Under the pieces are notes generated by a model. That model was not told the origin of the DNA. It ran no database searches and was given only the letters and a program-made list of their open reading frames with translations. Source: Phyllobacterium sophorae (GTDB lineage Bacteria; Pseudomonadota; Alphaproteobacteria; Rhizobiales; Rhizobiaceae). From it: 64,000 nucleotides of DNA. The translations under genes were made by a program, and so were the position numbers. Shown in pieces: positions 46,116 to 57,644 of the stretch (the first letter of the stretch is position 1; every line of letters starts with the position of its first letter). The stretch lies in the NCBI RefSeq assembly GCF_003010965.1, contig NZ_PGGM01000005.1:124001-188000 (forward strand), written 5' to 3'.

Positions 46116-47828
46116 ATGCCCGCTAAAATCACTCGTTCCGCCTATGCCCGGATGTTCGGCCCAACCACCGGCGACAAGGTTCGCCTTGCCGATACCGAGC
46201 TCTTTATCGAGGTGGAAAAAGACTTCACCGTCTATGGCGAAGAGGTGAAATTCGGTGGCGGCAAAGTCATTCGCGACGGCATGGGCCAGAGCCAGGTGGC
46301 TCGCGCAGATGGTGCTGTCGATACTGTGATTACCAATGCGCTGATCGTCGATCACAGCGGCATCTACAAGGCCGACGTGGGCCTGAAGGACGGGTTGATC
46401 GTTGCCATCGGCAAGGCGGGCAATCCCGACACACAGCCGGGCGTGACCATTATCATCGGCCCTGGCACGGAGATCATCGCCAGCGAGGGAAAGATACTTA
46501 CCGCCGGAGGGATGGACGCGCATATTCATTTCATCTGCCCGCAGCAGATCGAGGAAGCGCTGATGTCCGGCATCACCACCATGTTCGGTGGCGGCACAGG
46601 TCCGGCACATGGAACATTGGCAACCACCTGCACGCCTGGGCCGTGGCACATGGGACGGATGATCCAGTCTTTTGATGCGATCCCGATGAATATCGGCCTC
46701 TCCGGCAAGGGCAACGCGTCGCTGCCGAATGCACTGGAGGAAATGATCCTCGGCGGCGCATGCTCGCTCAAGCTGCATGAGGACTGGGGCACGACACCCG
46801 CTGCGATCGACAATTGCCTGTCAGTTGCTGACCAATACGACGTTCAGGTAATGATCCACACCGACACGCTGAACGAGAGCGGCTTTGTCGAGGACACGGT
46901 TGCCGCATTCAAGGGCCGTACCATCCACGCCTTTCACACGGAAGGCGCCGGCGGCGGGCATGCACCAGACATCATCAAGATCTGCGGCCTGCCGAATGTC
47001 ATACCCTCGTCGACCAATCCGACGCGGCCCTATACCAAGAACACCATTGCCGAACATCTCGACATGCTGATGGTCTGTCATCATCTGTCCTCCTCTATCC
47101 CGGAAGACGTGGCCTTTGCCGAGAGCCGCATCCGCAAGGAAACGATCGCGGCCGAGGATCTCCTGCACGATATCGGCGCGTTTTCGATCATCTCTTCCGA
47201 CAGCCAGGCGATGGGACGGGTCGGGGAAGTGCTGATCCGCACCTGGCAGACTGCCGACAAGATGAAGCGCCAGCGCGGGAGTCTGCCACAGGAGACAGGT
47301 GACAACGACAATTTCCGCGTGAAGCGCTATATCGCCAAATACACCATCAACCCGGCTATCGCACAGGGCGTTTCGCGGCATGTTGGCTCCATCGAGGTTG
47401 GCAAACGTGCCGATGTCGTGCTTTGGAATCCGGCCTTCTTCGGTGTGAAACCAGACATGGTCCTGATTGGCGGCTCGATCGCCGCCGCGCCGATGGGCGA
47501 TCCGAATGCGTCGATCCCGACGCCACAGCCGGTACACTATCGCTATATGTTCGGTGCCTATGGCAAGAATGTCAGCAATTCGTCGGTGACATTCGTCAGC
47601 AAGGCTTCGGTTGAAGCCGGTTTGCGCCAGTCGCTTGGCATCGACAAGCAGTTGATCGGGGTCGAGAACACGCGGGGCGGCATTTCCAAGGCCTCGATGA
47701 TCCACAATGATGCGACCCCGCATGTGGAGGTCGACCCGGAGACCTATGAAGTGCGCGCCGATGGTGAACTGTTGACCTGCGAACCCGCGACGGTATTGCC
47801 GATGGCGCAACGCTATTTCCTGTTTTGA
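46116..47828 (+). CDS. ureC: Urease alpha subunit
   Basis: 570 residues from ATG 46116 with GAGGGA upstream. Nickel ligands and catalytic residues are all present by the usual numbering +2: His136 and His138 (DAHIHF), carbamylated Lys219 ([10 protein letters not shown]), His248 (MIHTD), His274 (FHTEG), flap Cys321/His322 (MVCHHL) and Asp362 (SSDSQAMGR). It hydrolyses urea to ammonia and carbamate. The start follows the inserted inverted gene by 175 bp; a separate promoter is possible. Confidence 0.98.
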
Positions 47829-52121: not shown

Positions 52122-52263
52122 TGCCCGCCCCTCCCGATCACACTTAGAGGCCCCAGCGGTTATCGCTATTTTTGCCTCGTTCATGGATTATTAACGGATT
52201 GGGGACTGGTTCCGTTCCCTATGCATAGTCAACAGCCCGTGATTGGAGCGTGACGGACGGCAA

Positions 52264-52302
52264 ATGCTGCAATGCACCAAACGCAATGCTGCTATGCAAT
52301 AT
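52264..52302 (+). promoter_or_regulatory. Twin palindrome-like boxes upstream of the small RNA
   Basis: Box 1 ATGCTGC-AAT-GCACCAA (52264-52280) and box 2 ATGCTGC-TAT-GCAATAT (52286-52302) start 22 bp apart. A TATATT element follows at 52307-52312. The same pair with the same spacing precedes the DUF1127 gene at 55972-56010. The shape (imperfect dyads about two helix turns apart) suggests a LysR-type activator. Confidence 0.7.
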
Positions 52303-52318
52303 TGTCTATATTAAATCA

Positions 52319-52466
52319 GTCGAGTTGAGTTATTCTCAGATCAGGAATTTTCGACAGCGTCACCTCCTCCCGGCTCTGTCGAAACGGATGGCCTCTTCTC
52401 CTCCCAGAAGGCCCTCCATAACCAACGAAACCCACCGCACCTCCTCCCGCGGTGGGTTTTGTTGTT
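52319..52466 (+). ncRNA. Cuckoo/CcsR-type small RNA with three CCTCCTCCC loops
   Basis: Three hairpins in about 115 nt present an anti-Shine-Dalgarno loop. H1: TCGACAG (52351-52357) with CTGTCGA (52376-52382), inner pairs enclosing loop ACCTCCTCCC. H2: GGCCT/AGGCC (52390-52394 with 52409-52413), loop containing CTCCTCCC. H3, the terminator: AACCCACCGC (52429-52438) with GCGGTGGGTT (52449-52458), loop again ACCTCCTCCC, then TTGTTGTTT. This matches the cuckoo RNA family of alphaproteobacteria (CcsR1-4 in Rhodobacter, stress-induced). The 5' end near 52319 is inferred from a TATATT box; no ORF lies here. Confidence 0.82.
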
Positions 52467-52546
52467 TCAGGCACCTTCACTCGACTTCGTCCGATGGGAC
52501 TGCATCGGCCTCGCCAAACCCCTCCCAGTGGTTATCCCTTGACGCG

Positions 52547-52575
52547 AAAACGCCGCCCTCAAATCGAAGGCGGCG
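52547..52575 (-). terminator. Rho-independent terminator of the lipoprotein gene
   Basis: CGCCGCC (52551-52557) with GGCGGCG (52569-52575), followed on the minus strand by TTTTCGCG. It is 20 bp past the stop of the lipoprotein gene. Confidence 0.75.
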
Positions 52576-52594
52576 CTAAAGAACGGGTATCTGG

Positions 52595-52789
52595 TTACTG
52601 TGCAGCCGCGGGCTTCGCCGCGTCCTTTGCGGCAGCTTCAGCCGTTGCCCGCGTCGTCAAGGATTTGGGTGGCGGAACATAATAGGTGTCCTTGGCCGGC
52701 GAGGGTCCCGAGGCGGTTACCTTTGGTCCTGTGGTACAGCCCGCAAGAAGAACGAGGGACAGGGCAACCAGGGGCAGTGCAGTTCGCAT
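52595..52789 (-). CDS. Small putative lipoprotein
   Basis: 64 residues from ATG 52789. MRTALPLVALSLVLLAGCTT is a lipoprotein signal with lipobox LAGC; the mature part is short, Ala/Pro/Lys-rich (ATAEAAAKDAAKPAAAQ). Membrane-anchored small protein of unknown role. The gene is 81 bp downstream of the glycerate kinase gene on the same strand. Confidence 0.75.
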   Translation of the reverse strand: MRTALPLVALSLVLLAGCTTGPKVTASGPSPAKDTYYVPPPKSLTTRATAEAAAKDAAKPAAAQ

Positions 52790-52870
52790 TCGATTTTCCT
52801 TTGCATGGAGGGAATCGGTTTCCGGTTGACCATCCAATCGTGGCGATACCACGTCAATCCGGGCAAACGT

Positions 52871-54127
52871 TCAGCGAATTAAGATGGCGCGCAAATCATT
52901 GACGTTTGTGCCGGTGGGACCCGGCACGAACAGGTCGTCGATCGCGTTGAACGCGGTCCAGGCATCGTTGCTGTTGAGATAGGCCGAAGCGTCGTGACCC
53001 TTTGCCAGCAGCCGCGCAATGCTGGTGCTGTCCGCAAACGCACCGGCATTGTCTTCAGATCCGTCTATCCCATCGGTGTCGGCCGCGAAGGCGCTGATGC
53101 CATCCGCCCCGTCGATATCGAGGGCAAGCGACAAAAGAAATTCGCTGTTGCGACCGCCCTTGCCCTTACCACGGACGGTCACGGTCGTTTCCCCGCCAGA
53201 AAGAATCACGACTGGCCTTGTAAATGGCTGGTTCTTCAACAGAACCTGTTTGGCGAGCGCCGCATGAACATGGGCGACTTCGCGCGCTTCGCCTTCGATG
53301 GCATCTGACAGGATAACCGCTTCGACGCCCAGGTCGCGCGCTGCCTTGGCAGTTGCTTCCAACGAGACCGCGGCGGAAGCAATCAGATGATGTTCATGCC
53401 CGGCAAAGAGAGCGTCGGAAGGTTTGGGAGCATCGGCTTTGTCCGAATGTAGACGTGCCAGCGCTGCCTTCGGCAAATCGAGATTGTAACGCTCGACAAT
53501 CCGAAGAGCATCTTCCCGCGTCGTTTCGTCGGTGACCGTCGGGCCAGAAGCGACAAACGCCGGATTGTCCCCCGGAATATCGGAAACAATCAAAGAAAAT
53601 ACCTGGGCAGGATGGGCCGCAGCGGCGAGCCGCCCGCCTTTGATCGTGGAGAGATGTTTGCGCACCGCATTCATTGCCGAGATTGGGGCGCCCGATGCGA
53701 GCAGAACCTTGTTGACCGCTATCTCGTCTTCCAGCGTCATGCCTTCCGGCGGCGACGGCAGCAACGCCGAACCGCCGCCCGAAATCAGCGCCACAACCAG
53801 GTCGTCTGCGGTAAGACCGGACACGGTTTCAAGCAGACGTTTTGAGGCAACAAGGCCGGCAGCGTCCGGAACCGGATGGGACGCTTCGATAATTTCTATG
53901 TATTTGCACGCTGCGCCGAAGCCATAACGGGTAACAACGACGCCTTCGAGCGGGCCGTCCCAAACCTTCTCGAACGCGCTGGCCATCTGCGCCGAACCCT
54001 TGCCGGCTCCGATCACAATCGTCCGGCCTTTCGGCTTTGGTGGAAGATGCGCGGCAATCGTCAGCTCCGGATCAGCTGCATCGACAGCGGCCTGAAAGAG
54101 TTTTTTGAAGAATTCCTTATCCTGCAT
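52871..54127 (-). CDS. Glycerate 2-kinase, MOFRL/TtuD type
   Basis: 418 residues from ATG 54127. TIVIGAGKGSAQMASAFEKV and LISGGGSALLPSPPEGMTLE in the N-terminal DUF4147 domain, VILSGGETTVTVRGKGKGGR in the C-terminal MOFRL domain, and FAADTDGIDGSEDNAGAFAD before the end. It phosphorylates D-glycerate to 2-phosphoglycerate; older annotations call it hydroxypyruvate reductase. Starts 5 bp after the Dabb stop. Confidence 0.92.
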   Translation of the reverse strand: MQDKEFFKKLFQAAVDAADPELTIAAHLPPKPKGRTIVIGAGKGSAQMASAFEKVWDGPLEGVVVTRYGFGAACKYIEIIEASHPVPDAAGLVASKRLLETVSGLTADDLVVALISGGGSALLPSPPEGMTLEDEIAVNKVLLASGAPISAMNAVRKHLSTIKGGRLAAAAHPAQVFSLIVSDIPGDNPAFVASGPTVTDETTREDALRIVERYNLDLPKAALARLHSDKADAPKPSDALFAGHEHHLIASAAVSLEATAKAARDLGVEAVILSDAIEGEAREVAHVHAALAKQVLLKNQPFTRPVVILSGGETTVTVRGKGKGGRNSEFLLSLALDIDGADGISAFAADTDGIDGSEDNAGAFADSTSIARLLAKGHDASAYLNSNDAWTAFNAIDDLFVPGPTGTNVNDLRAILIR

Positions 54128-54132
54128 CGGTC

Positions 54133-54444
54133 TCAAACTTCCATATCAAAAACGATAACACCTTCAGCACCGCCCACAGTCGACGACACGATATTCCTGG
54201 CTATCGTCTGGTGTTCGGCATCAACGAGGTAGGCGTCTCGAGCGGCGCCATCGGCAAAGTCGAGGATAAACCCTTCGGAGAAGCCCTTGTCCATCCCGGT
54301 TTCTGGACTGACATTCTCACCCCATTGAATCGCGTTTGCACCTGGCAGCTTTGCACAGAGGGCCTCAAGGGCAAGGTAGATGGATTGCCGCTCACTCGCC
54401 GGCACATCGTCACGAAAACGGAGAAATACACAATGGCGGATCAC
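54133..54444 (-). CDS. Dabb (stress-responsive A/B barrel) domain protein
   Basis: 103 residues from a GTG at 54444 (VIRHCVFLRFRDDVPASERQ), the usual domain length; AAGAAGAGG lies upstream. The frame is open 37 codons further but without homology. The dimeric ferredoxin-like barrel is suggested by HCVFLRFRD and GFILDFADGAARDAYLVDAE. Function unknown; the name reflects stress induction of plant homologues. Probably co-transcribed with the glycerate kinase. Confidence 0.8.
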   Translation of the reverse strand: MIRHCVFLRFRDDVPASERQSIYLALEALCAKLPGANAIQWGENVSPETGMDKGFSEGFILDFADGAARDAYLVDAEHQTIARNIVSSTVGGAEGVIVFDMEV

Positions 54445-54564
54445 GGGCGGGGCCTCTTCTTTATTGCAAAGGGGGTAACTTCCGGTGCGCATCCTGACGA
54501 GATTGCCGGAAATTGCGAGTGCTATTTCCACCCGCCCTAAAAATAACACCGGCAAATCGCCTGA

Positions 54565-55875
54565 CTATACCGATTTGGATAGAAGCTGTTCCACGGACAA
54601 GGCCATAGCAAGGAGCCGGCGGTCCGCGCCATGCTGCGCTATCAGCATCAATCCGGCGGGCAATTGCATGCCCGGCATGGGCAGGCTGATCGCGGTAAGG
54701 TCGAACTGGTTGGCGATCTGCGTGTAGCGCAGAAGCTGAGATTCCGTTTCCTTGTAGAAGGCGTCATCATCCATGACCGGGGCGATCAAGGGTGCCACAA
54801 TCGGTACGGTTGGCATCGCAAACAGGTCAAAATTGCCGATGCGTTCATCCATTTGCCGAACGAGCGCCTGCCGCTTCTGCATCACGCTGATGTAATCCGA
54901 CTCCGAAACACTCAACCGGCGCAGAAGCGGCCGCCTTACCCGCTGGTCGACATCCAGTGTGTCATCGTGCAGCCAGGAGGCATGAACCCGGCTGCCTTCA
55001 ATGCCTGCAATCGAACCGACCGAAGTGGCGTCAGCCATTGCATCGATCAGATCGTCGATTGAGCATTCGATGATGAGAGCCCCCGCCTTCTCGCAGGCCT
55101 TCAGGGTCTCGTCGAAACCATGGGCAACCGGTTTCTCAAGCGAGTCAAGCAACTGGCTGCGAGGCACGCCGATGCGCAAGCCGTTCAGCGAGACCGGTTC
55201 AGGAAGGCCAACCGCCTCCCCCGCCATGATGGAGTCGGCTACCGCGCAATCAGAAACGGAACGCGCTAGGGGGCCGATGGAATCGAGGCTTGGTGACAAG
55301 GGAAACGCGCCTTGCAGTGGTATGCGCCTTGCTGTGGGCTTGAACCCCGCAACCCCGTTCAGTGCTGCCGGAATGCGGACCGAGCCACCGGTATCCGATC
55401 CGATAGAGATTTCGCTCGTACCTTCCGCCACCGAGATGCCCGCGCCAGTCGATGACCCGCCGGCAATCCGGCGCGGATCAACGGCATTCCCTGCAACGGG
55501 ATAGTGCGGATTGAGCCCGACGGCGGTGAAGGCGAATTCAGTCATGATCGTCTTCCCGATGATGATTGCCCCTGCTGCCCGCAATCTTTCGACAACGACT
55601 GCATCGATGGTTGCGGGCGCTGCAGTTTGCCGAATGATCGAACCGGCCAGTGTCGGTTCACCGGCGACATCGAACAGATCCTTGATCGAGACAATCCTGC
55701 CGTCGAGCGGCCCGCGCAGCGCCGCGTCCGCCATGCGCTTGTCGGCCGCATCCGCCTCAAGACGTGCGGTCTCAAAGTACAGCTTGACAAAAACGCGCTC
55801 ATCAGCGGCGCGTGCAGATAGTCGCGTCAGGATTTGTTCGAGCCTGTCGCGTGCAGATGATTTGTGTTGGGGCAC
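54565..55875 (-). CDS. Amidase-signature family protein
   Basis: 436 residues from a GTG at 55875 with AGGATA upstream; an ATG at 55950 is an alternative. The catalytic lysine is in GRIVSIKDLFDVAGEPTLAG, the cis-serine in GSDTGGSVRIPAALNGVAG and the nucleophile in AGGSSTGAGISVAEGTSEIS. It hydrolyses carboxamides; substrate unknown. Next to glycerate kinase and Dabb genes on the minus strand. A link to the urease operon (amide to ammonia) is possible but not shown. Confidence 0.87.
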   Translation of the reverse strand: MPQHKSSARDRLEQILTRLSARAADERVFVKLYFETARLEADAADKRMADAALRGPLDGRIVSIKDLFDVAGEPTLAGSIIRQTAAPATIDAVVVERLRAAGAIIIGKTIMTEFAFTAVGLNPHYPVAGNAVDPRRIAGGSSTGAGISVAEGTSEISIGSDTGGSVRIPAALNGVAGFKPTARRIPLQGAFPLSPSLDSIGPLARSVSDCAVADSIMAGEAVGLPEPVSLNGLRIGVPRSQLLDSLEKPVAHGFDETLKACEKAGALIIECSIDDLIDAMADATSVGSIAGIEGSRVHASWLHDDTLDVDQRVRRPLLRRLSVSESDYISVMQKRQALVRQMDERIGNFDLFAMPTVPIVAPLIAPVMDDDAFYKETESQLLRYTQIANQFDLTAISLPMPGMQLPAGLMLIAQHGADRRLLAMALSVEQLLSKSV

Positions 55876-55971
55876 TTTTCTATCCTGAGAGGGGTCGATA
55901 TCAGCCGATCTTTTATAGCCGGAAGCGGTCCGGAAATGAAAGCCTGTCAAACCCGGGGCCGCGCCGGCCGA

Positions 55972-56010
55972 TTGCTGCTATGCAGCAACATCAATGCTGC
56001 CTTGCAACAA
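55972..56010 (+). promoter_or_regulatory. Twin palindrome boxes upstream of the DUF1127 gene
   Basis: Box 1 TTGCTGC-TAT-GCAGCAA (55972-55988) is a perfect 7-3-7 dyad; box 2 ATGCTGC-CTT-GCAACAA (55994-56010) is near-perfect. The starts are 22 bp apart, exactly as upstream of the small RNA at 52264. A shared regulator is the simplest reading. Confidence 0.75.
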
Positions 56011-56086
56011 CGGCAATTTTCAATCGATACAACTCACTGCATATTTTGTTTCAGGGAGGGCAAAAAAACATAAAGGGGTATGAACC

Positions 56087-56230
56087 ATGAGCCTTCGCCA
56101 CCGTATTCAAAAGTACCGTCAGTACCGGCAGAACCTGCACGAACTGCGCCTTTGCACCGATCGCAATCTTGCCGATCTTGGCATTGCCCGCACCGATATT
56201 CGCCGGATCGCCTGGCAAGCCTGCAATTAA
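56087..56230 (+). CDS. DUF1127 small basic protein (47 aa)
   Basis: 47 residues from ATG 56087: MSLRHRIQKYRQYRQNLHEL, then RLCTDRNLADLGIARTDIRR, the DUF1127 signature (L..L....L.DIG..R.dI). Arg-rich, likely RNA- or small-RNA-interacting. In Rhodobacter a DUF1127 protein is encoded with the CcsR (cuckoo) RNAs and promotes their processing, and in Brucella, from memory, small proteins of this kind are VtlR targets. Here the twin boxes upstream are shared with the sRNA locus 3.8 kb away. Confidence 0.9.
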   Translation: MSLRHRIQKYRQYRQNLHELRLCTDRNLADLGIARTDIRRIAWQACN

Positions 56231-56300: not shown

Positions 56301-57644
56301 TCAGGATTCTCTGAAGGCGCGTGACATACTGTCGATCACCGGCTTTGCAAGATATTCGAAGAATGTACGTTCGTGAGTCTGGATGAGAATATCCGCCGGC
56401 ATTCCGGGCGTTGGCGTAAAGCCATGGATCCGGGCAAGCTCGTCCGCAGGAATACTGACACGCGCCAGATAGACCTCCTGCTTCTGGTTGCTTGTGGCGT
56501 CAGTTACGGAATCGGCTGACACATAGTCGACCCGGCCGTTGATGATCGGCGTCGTGCGCTGGTTGAGCGCGCTCAGGCGCACATGTGCCACCTGGCCTTC
56601 CTTGACCTCATCGATCTGCATGCGGGGGATCTGCGCCTCTATGATGAGCGGTACACCTGCGGGAAGAATCTCGATGATCGGCTTTCCGCTTTCGATGACC
56701 CCGCCCGGCGTATGATAATAGAGACGGATGATCGTGCCCGAAACGGGAGCCTTGACCACGGTGCGGCTCAGAATATCTTCCGCCTGGCGCGACTGCTCGC
56801 GTACGGTGTCGAGTTCGGCTTCGGCGCTCTGGACCTCATCAAGCGCCGCCTGCTTTTCGGTATCCTTCGTCTGTATCATTTCTTTCTGGAATTTCTCGAT
56901 CTGCGCGTTGACTTCCTGGATTTCTGCGTCAAGCCGCGCAATCGTGCCGTTGCCATCCGCTATGGCGCGTTCGAGAACGCTGACCTCAGAGCGGGCCATG
57001 AGCCCTTTTCTATAGAGCGAATACTTGGCCTCATACTCGTCATTGAGCAGAAGGACCTGTTTACGTGTTGCATCAATCTGCGCATTACGCCCGATGCGGC
57101 GGAATTCCAGCGCCGAGATATTGCGCTGCATCATCTGGAGTTCATTGGCATATTTTGCATGGGCCGCATTGAAATTGTCGCTCTGGCTATCGTTGACGGC
57201 ACGTATCTCCGGATTGGCCATATTCTCCAGGATGATCTTCGGCGGCTGATAGCGATCTTCGCCGTGGACAATGGCATGAAGCCGGGCGAGGATTGCTTCA
57301 AGACGCGCCTGGCGCAGGAACAGCTGTTGCGAATTGGCGCGCGGCGCTGTCTCGTCAAGGTGGACAAGGTCATCACCTTCCTTGACACGGTCACCTTCTC
57401 GGACCAGCAGCTCCTTGATAATTCCGCCTTCCAGATGCTGAACGACCTTGTTCTTGCCTGTGGCTACAAAGCTGCCCGGCGCGATGACTGCAGCTGCAAG
57501 TTGTGCGGTTGCAGCCCACGTGCCGAAGCCGCCAAAGCAGACGAAGATCAGCACTATCCCGAATTTTGTATAGGGCCTGATTGATCTTGGAACGCCGTCG
57601 TACCATTCCAGGTTATTCATTATGTTTGATGCGGCCATCGCCAT
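56301..57644 (-). CDS. Type I secretion membrane-fusion protein (HlyD/PrtE family)
   Basis: 447 residues. One N-terminal membrane helix (FGIVLIFVCFGGFGTWAA at about 28-45), then the lipoyl/barrel half, a long coiled-coil hairpin (about 100-290), then the second lipoyl half (VVKAPVSGTIIRLYYHTPGG) and beta-barrel (VRLSALNQRTTPIINGRVDY). It links the inner-membrane ABC exporter to an outer-membrane TolC-like channel, which is not encoded here. Starts 4 bp after the ABC gene in the same operon. Confidence 0.92.
   Translation of the reverse strand: MAMAASNIMNNLEWYDGVPRSIRPYTKFGIVLIFVCFGGFGTWAATAQLAAAVIAPGSFVATGKNKVVQHLEGGIIKELLVREGDRVKEGDDLVHLDETAPRANSQQLFLRQARLEAILARLHAIVHGEDRYQPPKIILENMANPEIRAVNDSQSDNFNAAHAKYANELQMMQRNISALEFRRIGRNAQIDATRKQVLLLNDEYEAKYSLYRKGLMARSEVSVLERAIADGNGTIARLDAEIQEVNAQIEKFQKEMIQTKDTEKQAALDEVQSAEAELDTVREQSRQAEDILSRTVVKAPVSGTIIRLYYHTPGGVIESGKPIIEILPAGVPLIIEAQIPRMQIDEVKEGQVAHVRLSALNQRTTPIINGRVDYVSADSVTDATSNQKQEVYLARVSIPADELARIHGFTPTPGMPADILIQTHERTFFEYLAKPVIDSMSRAFRES

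Follow-up and report, generated by a model that had tools for sequence, protein, structure and literature searches.

A predicted composite LsrB and PhaR promoter at the ar14 small RNA and DUF1127 loci of Phyllobacterium sophorae

Within a 64,000-nucleotide stretch of the Phyllobacterium sophorae genome (contig NZ_PGGM01000005.1; G000:C45:124001-188000 of a 6.35-Mb genome in 49 contigs), referred to here as the window, an ar14 small RNA (sRNA) and a gene for a small DUF1127 protein are each preceded by a pair of TGC/GCA palindromic boxes. The question that this locus raises is whether each pair is one site repeated, or two different sites placed side by side. The best reading of the sequences is that the two boxes are not equivalent, and that the pair would form a composite promoter switch rather than two copies of one site. 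Probably, an LsrB activator and a PhaR repressor, whose binding is predicted, together link the redox and carbon-storage state of the cell to the ar14/DUF1127 module.

The boxes start at 52264 and 52286 before the sRNA and at 55972 and 55994 before the gene, with the exact 22-bp spacing that the first-pass annotation had given, and the 55972 box is the perfect dyad that it had described (TTGCTGC-TAT-GCAGCAA). The general form proposed there, WTGCTGC-N3-GCANNAA, fits three boxes with no mismatch, but the 52286 box ends in GCAATAT and departs from it at the last base. The boxes were also called identical, which does not agree with their scores: by the matrices, the distal ar14 box is a strong PhaR-type site (22.0) and not an LsrB site (7.6, where known sites reach at least 11.4), and the proximal box is an LsrB site (22.9). 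The PhaR matrix was built from 17 Sinorhizobium meliloti sites in fragments listed as bound “Efficient” in electrophoretic mobility shift assays (EMSA; Table 3 of PMC12542648), with a leave-one-out minimum of 11.0 and a median of 19.5. The LsrB matrix (minimum 11.4, median 21.8) comes from 30 sites outside the twin, 15 taken from operon promoters of genomes without PhaR and 15 distinct ones of abcR1 type behind lsrB. The latter are the distinct ones among 17 LsrB consensus matches found in 30 loci, and an ar15-like loop word follows in 15 of the 17, the exceptions being G019 and G121.

It is proposed that the proximal box would be the site of LsrB (VtlR), a redox-responsive LysR activator acting just upstream of the -35 element, and that the distal box, two helical turns further upstream, would be an operator for PhaR (AniA), which binds DNA and also associates with polyhydroxybutyrate (PHB) granules. 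When there is no PHB, PhaR would adjoin and partly cover the LsrB site, overlapping its inner motif, and the promoter would stay low. As PHB accumulates, PhaR would be drawn away to it, leaving LsrB free to recruit RNA polymerase, and the ar14 sRNA and the DUF1127 protein would be co-produced when LsrB is active and carbon is stored. We infer that both proteins bind the window promoters, that they act antagonistically and that this physiological logic holds; the observations that bear on them are the anatomy of the sequence, its conservation, the matrix scores and the co-distribution with phaR.

LsrB, named as a possible regulator in the first-pass annotation, is a strong candidate for the proximal box, although not for the distal one, which fails the LsrB matrix. 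The genome encodes an LsrB orthologue (C44:39067-39963), with a thioredoxin reductase gene and an ar15/AbcR sRNA as its neighbours, and the protein matches the LsrB structure (PDB code 9hh1) with 484.7 bits. The site at 52283 has the best LsrB score in the 64 kb (22.9), and 55991 is the next separate site (14.7), both lying in the range of other LsrB-type sites. Exact GCANNGCWGCYATGCA occurs at four places in the genome, including the proximal ar14 box. From the published box GCAT-N3-TG-N3-T, GCAATGCTGCTAT at ar14 departs by one mismatch and TCAATGCTGCCTT at the DUF1127 gene by two. According to the family alignment both boxes lie upstream of -35, the position of an activator, the centre of the proximal ar14 box being about 51 bp before the ar14 5' end and the distal box at about -73. 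A simple sigma-70 scan of 52200-52500 found no promoter, so the -35/-10 elements and start sites are placed solely by this alignment.

S. meliloti LsrB was recovered with the promoter of NfeR1, an ar14-type sRNA, and gel-shifts and activates it via TGCA-N6-GCAT at about -72 to -57 (PMC10746234). LsrB also activates abcR1 (PMC8844928). In Brucella, VtlR regulates abcR2 and three DUF1127 genes positively (PMC12595884), as does Agrobacterium VtlR for abcR1, atu1667 and vrsA, through the box GCAT-N3-TG-N3-T (PMC7486931). The LsrB part of the earlier idea is thus sound and largely known, control of ar14 (NfeR1), abcR1 and DUF1127 genes by LsrB/VtlR having been published for other species; PhaR as a second reader of the promoter is the new part.

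Two other LsrB-type sequences of the genome deserve mention. The abcR-type promoter next to lsrB (L037/L099, G000:C44, ar15) carries GCATGGGTGCGTTGCACAAATG, an LsrB consensus whose right arm scores 14.9 for PhaR. An exact match to the LsrB core at C11:221827-221843, the perfect palindrome GCATGGCWGCCATGCA, was set aside as probably a terminator: it lies in the longer hairpin GGCCTGCATGGCTGCCATGCAGGCC just after a 461-amino-acid open reading frame (ORF).

PhaR was raised as a rival reader because of the site TTGCTGCATTGCAGCAA upstream of the genome's own phaR gene (C11:77620, E 1e-29; TIGR01848 143.8 versus 109.45 bits), a region with a PhaR-type site scoring 22.4. On the PhaR matrix the four window boxes score 22.0, 15.7, 13.9 and 11.5, ranks 1, 2, 3 and 5 of the 64 kb, within the range of the EMSA-bound sites. 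The distal ar14 box contains TGCAATGCACCA, an exact fit to TGCRNYGCASMA as given in PMC6201568. The distal boxes of 73 different aligned promoters, many of them from Mesorhizobium and hence non-independent, have a median PhaR score of 21.3, above the median of the training sites (19.5). The ar14 distal box is best read as a predicted PhaR operator and the proximal one as a predicted LsrB site, a division that appears clear at ar14 and blurred at the DUF1127 gene.

That PhaR alone occupies both boxes of each pair, the likeness to LsrB sites being incidental, is improbable. Two palindromes are indeed present at S. meliloti phaP1/phaP2, all four window boxes are among the top five PhaR scores, and the solo DUF1127 promoters of four Phyllobacterium relatives keep a PhaR-type box (best scores 12.6-19.3), their LsrB core having one or two mismatches. 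Yet no position in the window scores higher for LsrB than 52283-52299, both boxes occupy an activator position in the family alignment, and the S. meliloti ar14 promoter is described as bound and activated by LsrB (PMC10746234).

A stronger rival is that LsrB alone owns both boxes, a LysR tetramer resting on a pair of dyads separated by two helical turns (a recognition and an activation site, as for OxyR) with no part for PhaR. The OxyR operator has a period of two helical turns, to which the 22-bp period can be compared, and the spacing of the pair is near-fixed at 22 or 21 bp. LsrB and OxyR are of common ancestry and LsrB is expected to be tetrameric, although dimers were seen without DNA (PMC11975290). 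The motif TGCA-N6-GCAT published for S. meliloti, where LsrB was recovered with the promoter fragment that contains it, covers the inner arms of both boxes (PMC10746234). The distal boxes, however, do not behave as LsrB sites. In the window they score 7.6 (52264) and 10.7 (55972), both below 11.4. Of the 65 promoters of PhaR+ genomes with an LsrB core at up to one mismatch, a box scoring 14 or more for PhaR stands in the 22-bp register in 51. The distal box reaches the LsrB leave-one-out minimum in one of these 51 (median 6.2) and fails it in 50, and the proximal box reaches it in all 51 (median 19.2); as the 51 were picked by an LsrB-like core together with the PhaR score, the proximal result is partly built in, and the distal failure is not. 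The distal ar14 box also agrees with a PhaR site in both arms and in the R-N-Y centre.

Other LsrB targets point the same way. Outside the LsrB site itself, a PhaR score of at least 11 was found in only one of the 17 abcR1-type promoters, 142 bp off, so LsrB targets are generally without a second, PhaR-type box, and none of this kind stands near the LsrB site in the 17. PhaR-less genomes retain the LsrB core without a distal box. Occupation of both boxes by LsrB alone is the main rival, and it is weakened by the box scores, the PhaR-less genomes and the abcR1-type promoters; it is regarded as rather unlikely.

The co-distribution of the PhaR-type box with PhaR was followed in promoters gathered via the listed matches to the DUF1127 protein rather than the motif, which gave 112 regions from 99 of 151 genomes and covered 90 of the 134 PhaR+ genomes; the absence of PhaR was confirmed with a second query. 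Within 250 bp of an operon-type DUF1127 start, 81 of the 90 PhaR+ genomes have a position scoring 14 or more for PhaR, versus 2 of 9 PhaR-less ones. The background rate is four such matches in 598,487 positions of unselected DNA from 80 named loci. Both exceptions are drafts whose congeners have PhaR, G031 (96% complete, also without lsrB) and G110 (68% complete), and once these are dropped the box occurs in none of the seven PhaR-less genomes (0/15 promoters). The LsrB core is kept in all 15 of these promoters and in 65 of the 94 others. The mere presence of either regulator does not discriminate among the 42 genomes with the twin box described below, as LsrB and PhaR are each found in 41 and G031 has neither.

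The twin box itself is rare and well placed. For the core pair, two copies of TGCTGCN3GCA 22 bp apart with up to three mismatches, the window has four matches at two places versus 0.23 expected, and none of 100 shuffled windows reaches four. A genome-wide search, which had been suggested as a check, found the exact pair solely at these two sites in 6.35 Mb. With up to three mismatches there are 19 matches versus 8 for the reversed control pattern, and single boxes are common (84+79 matches at up to one mismatch versus 23+17 for the control). In the GTDB family Rhizobiaceae the pair, at up to one mismatch, occurs in 42 of 151 genomes, and the reversed pattern has two matches. Thirty of these family sites were fetched: a DUF1127 ORF lies downstream in 24, the other six have neither DUF1127 nor anti-Shine-Dalgarno loops, and ar14 was found in 13 of the 20 loci scanned for it.

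A strict twin consensus was also searched in the named-genome collection, where it matches at least 117 stretches, 80 of them listed. Of those listed, 78 are titled Hyphomicrobiales, one only “Bacterium” (L172) and one Pseudorhodobacter. The DUF1127 start is 84-114 bp downstream in 67 of the 80 (L113, cut by a contig end, reads 60), ten lead directly into anti-Shine-Dalgarno loops and so represent solo ar14 (eight of Phyllobacterium type, two Mesorhizobium), two are cut by contig ends, and L166 has neither feature. Thus 77 of the 78 readable listed strict sites, together with 24 of the 30 looser ones, precede DUF1127 or ar14, and the spread through unrelated DNA that would have spoken against the first-pass idea is not seen. 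Much of the family thus has the twin box as the usual promoter of its DUF1127-ar14 operon. A chance repeat of a TGC-rich word is so improbable that it was rejected: single TGCTGC words are common and six of the 30 fetched loose sites are not at DUF1127 or ar14, but the genome holds just two exact copies of the pair, the shuffles never match it, and it is conserved across the family in association with DUF1127/ar14.

Conservation is not uniform along the pair. The left arm of the distal box is highly conserved and is fixed by no search pattern; the strict pattern itself fixes part of the conservation seen in the alignment, so that this arm provides the independent columns. Nor is the spacing absolute: among 61 promoters with both elements the PhaR box is 22 bp upstream of the LsrB frame in 49, 21 bp in four, overlapping in six and elsewhere in two. 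In the DUF1127 promoters of G045, G071, G103 and G138 (L363, L360, L371, L365), a PhaR-type core (13.8-16.7) lies within the LsrB right arm (GCATGGGTGCGATGCAGCAT), not 22 bp upstream. Among the listed strict matches, the Pseudorhodobacter antarcticus site (L166) is the only one titled outside Hyphomicrobiales besides the untitled “Bacterium”. The two Mesorhizobium sites L146 and L158 place the twin box immediately before solo ar14, as the window does, the other listed Mesorhizobium copies being operons.

The window holds the twin box twice because its sRNA and gene are separate, an arrangement shared within the genus. Seven named Phyllobacterium loci and one “Rhizobiales bacterium” among the listed sites have the same twin box before solo ar14, and in the four with at least 4 kb of downstream DNA (L118, L159, L167, L171) a solo DUF1127 gene, likewise of the MSLR type, follows about 3.7-3.9 kb on. 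The module is not simply split, however, as had been supposed, since the same genome also keeps two unsplit DUF1127-ar14 operons, on C7 and C22, with the gene order DUF1127 then sRNA as in the CcaF1-CcsR type operon, and a further solo ar14 on C44. The C22 operon (L025) has a strong PhaR-type box (22.5), and the C7 operon (L024) combines an exact LsrB core with PhaR scores of 10.2 at most, a contrast that hints at a division of labour between operon copies. Nine further DUF1127 matches exist in the genome besides those of C7, C22 and the window; over the 330 bp that precede the domain match, their PhaR scores do not exceed 10.3 and the LsrB core is absent at up to one mismatch.

The S. meliloti protein SMc02051 offers a possible functional connection. 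It is among the notably changed proteins of a phaR study (log2 1.51 and 4.63, module 1), is more abundant in a phbC mutant that has also lost phaR, and has a PhaR-like box, CATGGGTGCGATGCAGCATTA, at -85 (PMC12542648). Its gene flanks C14/sm7, an sRNA of the SMc02051/tig interval (PMC2780559, PMC2573895), and PMC8343143 gives it as “DUF1137”, which may be a slip for DUF1127. The same 21-mer recurs identically in G071 before a DUF1127 gene that has its own boxes and lies directly downstream of ar14, and it is a strong inference that SMc02051 is the DUF1127 partner of ar14.

Several points weigh against a PhaR operator in these promoters. The near-rigid 22-bp spacing (49/61) is also expected from a single tetrameric LysR protein. 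For PhaR, position 57116, which is not a box, ranks fourth (12.6) and outranks the 52286 box; the R-N-Y centre of the consensus (YGCRNYGCR) is present in 52264 (AAT), and 52286 (TAT), 55972 (TAT) and 55994 (CTT) violate it by one mismatch each; the window DUF1127 boxes are hybrids of both matrices. Five of the 17 abcR1-type LsrB sites score at least 14 for PhaR, the LsrB right arm resembling the PhaR core, so overlapping PhaR calls are ambiguous. The PhaR-type box is missing in 9 of the 90 PhaR+ genomes. On a tree of 70 LsrB proteins (drafts G031 and G110 left out, box trait of G000, G056 and G072 entered by hand) the absence of PhaR takes at least three changes, and the two independent pairs on starred branches, or three on all branches, agree in direction and are not significant; with so few pairs the association cannot reach significance in this test. 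Finally, PhaR binding at SMc02051 is given in its source as “not evaluated” (PMC12542648). It is also very improbable that another regulator such as NtrC owns the distal box: NtrC represses PnfeR1 from a likewise TGC/GCA-type site, TGC-N11-GCA at -116 to -100 (PMC10746234), but the distal box has the form TGC-N3-GCA and lies at about -73, although no systematic search was made for the NtrC spacing.

The features of the window are collected in Table 1. The identities first given to the sRNA, one of the DUF1127-linked anti-Shine-Dalgarno kind, and to the gene are borne out by Rfam and Pfam. The ar14 fold has three hairpins whose loops are the anti-Shine-Dalgarno motif CTCCTCCC, the third being terminator-like and followed by U-rich sequence. 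Four opposite-strand ORFs (52595..55950) separate sRNA and gene, which are 3.6 kb apart with their own boxes and therefore do not form a single operon of the CcaF1-CcsR type. Elsewhere in the window, 46268-46557 on the minus strand matches the Rfam family 5_ureB_sRNA (102.5 bits), upstream of urease accessory ORFs.

Table 1. Coordinates and assignments of the features around the two promoters of the window
Feature	Position	Strand	Scores and remarks
Distal ar14 box (52264 box), PhaR/AniA-type palindrome AAATGCTGCAATGCACCAAAC	52262..52282	+	PhaR matrix 22.0, LsrB matrix 7.6
TGCA-N6-GCAA bridging both ar14 boxes	52273..52286	+	one base off the LsrB motif TGCA-N6-GCAT of the NfeR1 promoter (PMC10746234)
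Proximal ar14 box (52286 box), LsrB/VtlR-type core GCAATGCTGCTATGCAA	52283..52299	+	LsrB matrix 22.9, PhaR matrix 11.5
ar14 sRNA	52345..52464	+	Rfam RF02344 81.8 bits (gathering 58.8); fold z -8.4
Small ORF between sRNA and DUF1127	52595-52852	-	no Pfam match
DUF4147/MOFRL ORF	52871-54136	-	between ar14 and DUF1127
Dabb ORF	54133-54555	-	between ar14 and DUF1127
Amidase ORF	54565-55950	-	between ar14 and DUF1127
Distal DUF1127 box (55972, perfect dyad), PhaR-type hybrid	55970..55990	+	PhaR matrix 15.7, LsrB matrix 10.7
Proximal DUF1127 box (55994), hybrid	55991..56012	+	weak fit to both matrices: LsrB 14.7, PhaR 13.9
DUF1127 gene, solo, 47 amino acids, MSLRHRIQKYRQYRQ...	56087..56230	+	Pfam PF06568 39.2 bits (cut-off 23.3)

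Extended to the Rhizobiaceae as a whole, the proposal is that ar14/DUF1127 is under a composite switch of PHB-sensing PhaR and redox-sensing LsrB two helical turns apart, that a sRNA blocking translation globally and its partner protein report carbon storage as well as oxidative state, and that the PhaR half is lost with PhaR; this wider form appears marginally probable. Both LsrB/VtlR and PhaR act as global regulators in rhizobia and related bacteria, and the papers cited here treat them separately. Were a single promoter to respond to both, redox, nitrogen and carbon-storage state would be joined in one output, made up of the small DUF1127 proteins, which have been tied to phosphate and carbon phenotypes, and the ar14 sRNA, by which ntrBC and two transporter mRNAs are silenced in S. 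meliloti (PMC10746234). SMc02051, so far an unexplained PhaR-affected protein, would also gain an identity and a context. In titles and abstract openings of the papers listed from mostly open-access literature, no link of PhaR/AniA to DUF1127, LsrB or NfeR1, or of polyhydroxybutyrate to DUF1127, was found.

The arrangement can be compared with four known systems. The S. meliloti nfeR1 promoter shares an sRNA bearing three anti-Shine-Dalgarno motifs, the same motif region and an activator upstream of -35, and its second regulator, NtrC, antagonises LsrB from a nearby site, which parallels the role proposed for PhaR (PMC10746234). Unlike the reading given here, that paper does not mention a PhaR site (PhaR has no match, and AniA appears only in a reference title). 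In the PhaR/AniA regulon of S. meliloti and Bradyrhizobium the palindrome is TGC-RNY-GCA, as in the 52264 box, PhaR represses another sRNA, mmgR, and SMc02051 appears among the changed proteins, a PhaR box being listed for it (PMC12542648, PMC6201568). In the text of PMC12542648, however, SMc02051 is an uncharacterized small protein, and DUF1127, LsrB and NfeR1 have no matches. The Rhodobacter sphaeroides CcaF1-CcsR locus likewise combines a DUF1127 protein with a group of homologous sRNAs, but as one operon, whereas the window has separate promoters (PMC12501420). The VtlR regulons of Brucella and Agrobacterium (abcR, DUF1127 small proteins, vrsA) differ in that a single box is described, with neither a link to PHB nor ar14 in the passages concerned; their box, CAATGCAGCCATGCA, resembles CAATGCTGCTATGCA of the window, and in them one LysR protein drives both an sRNA and DUF1127 genes, as is proposed here (PMC12595884, PMC7486931).

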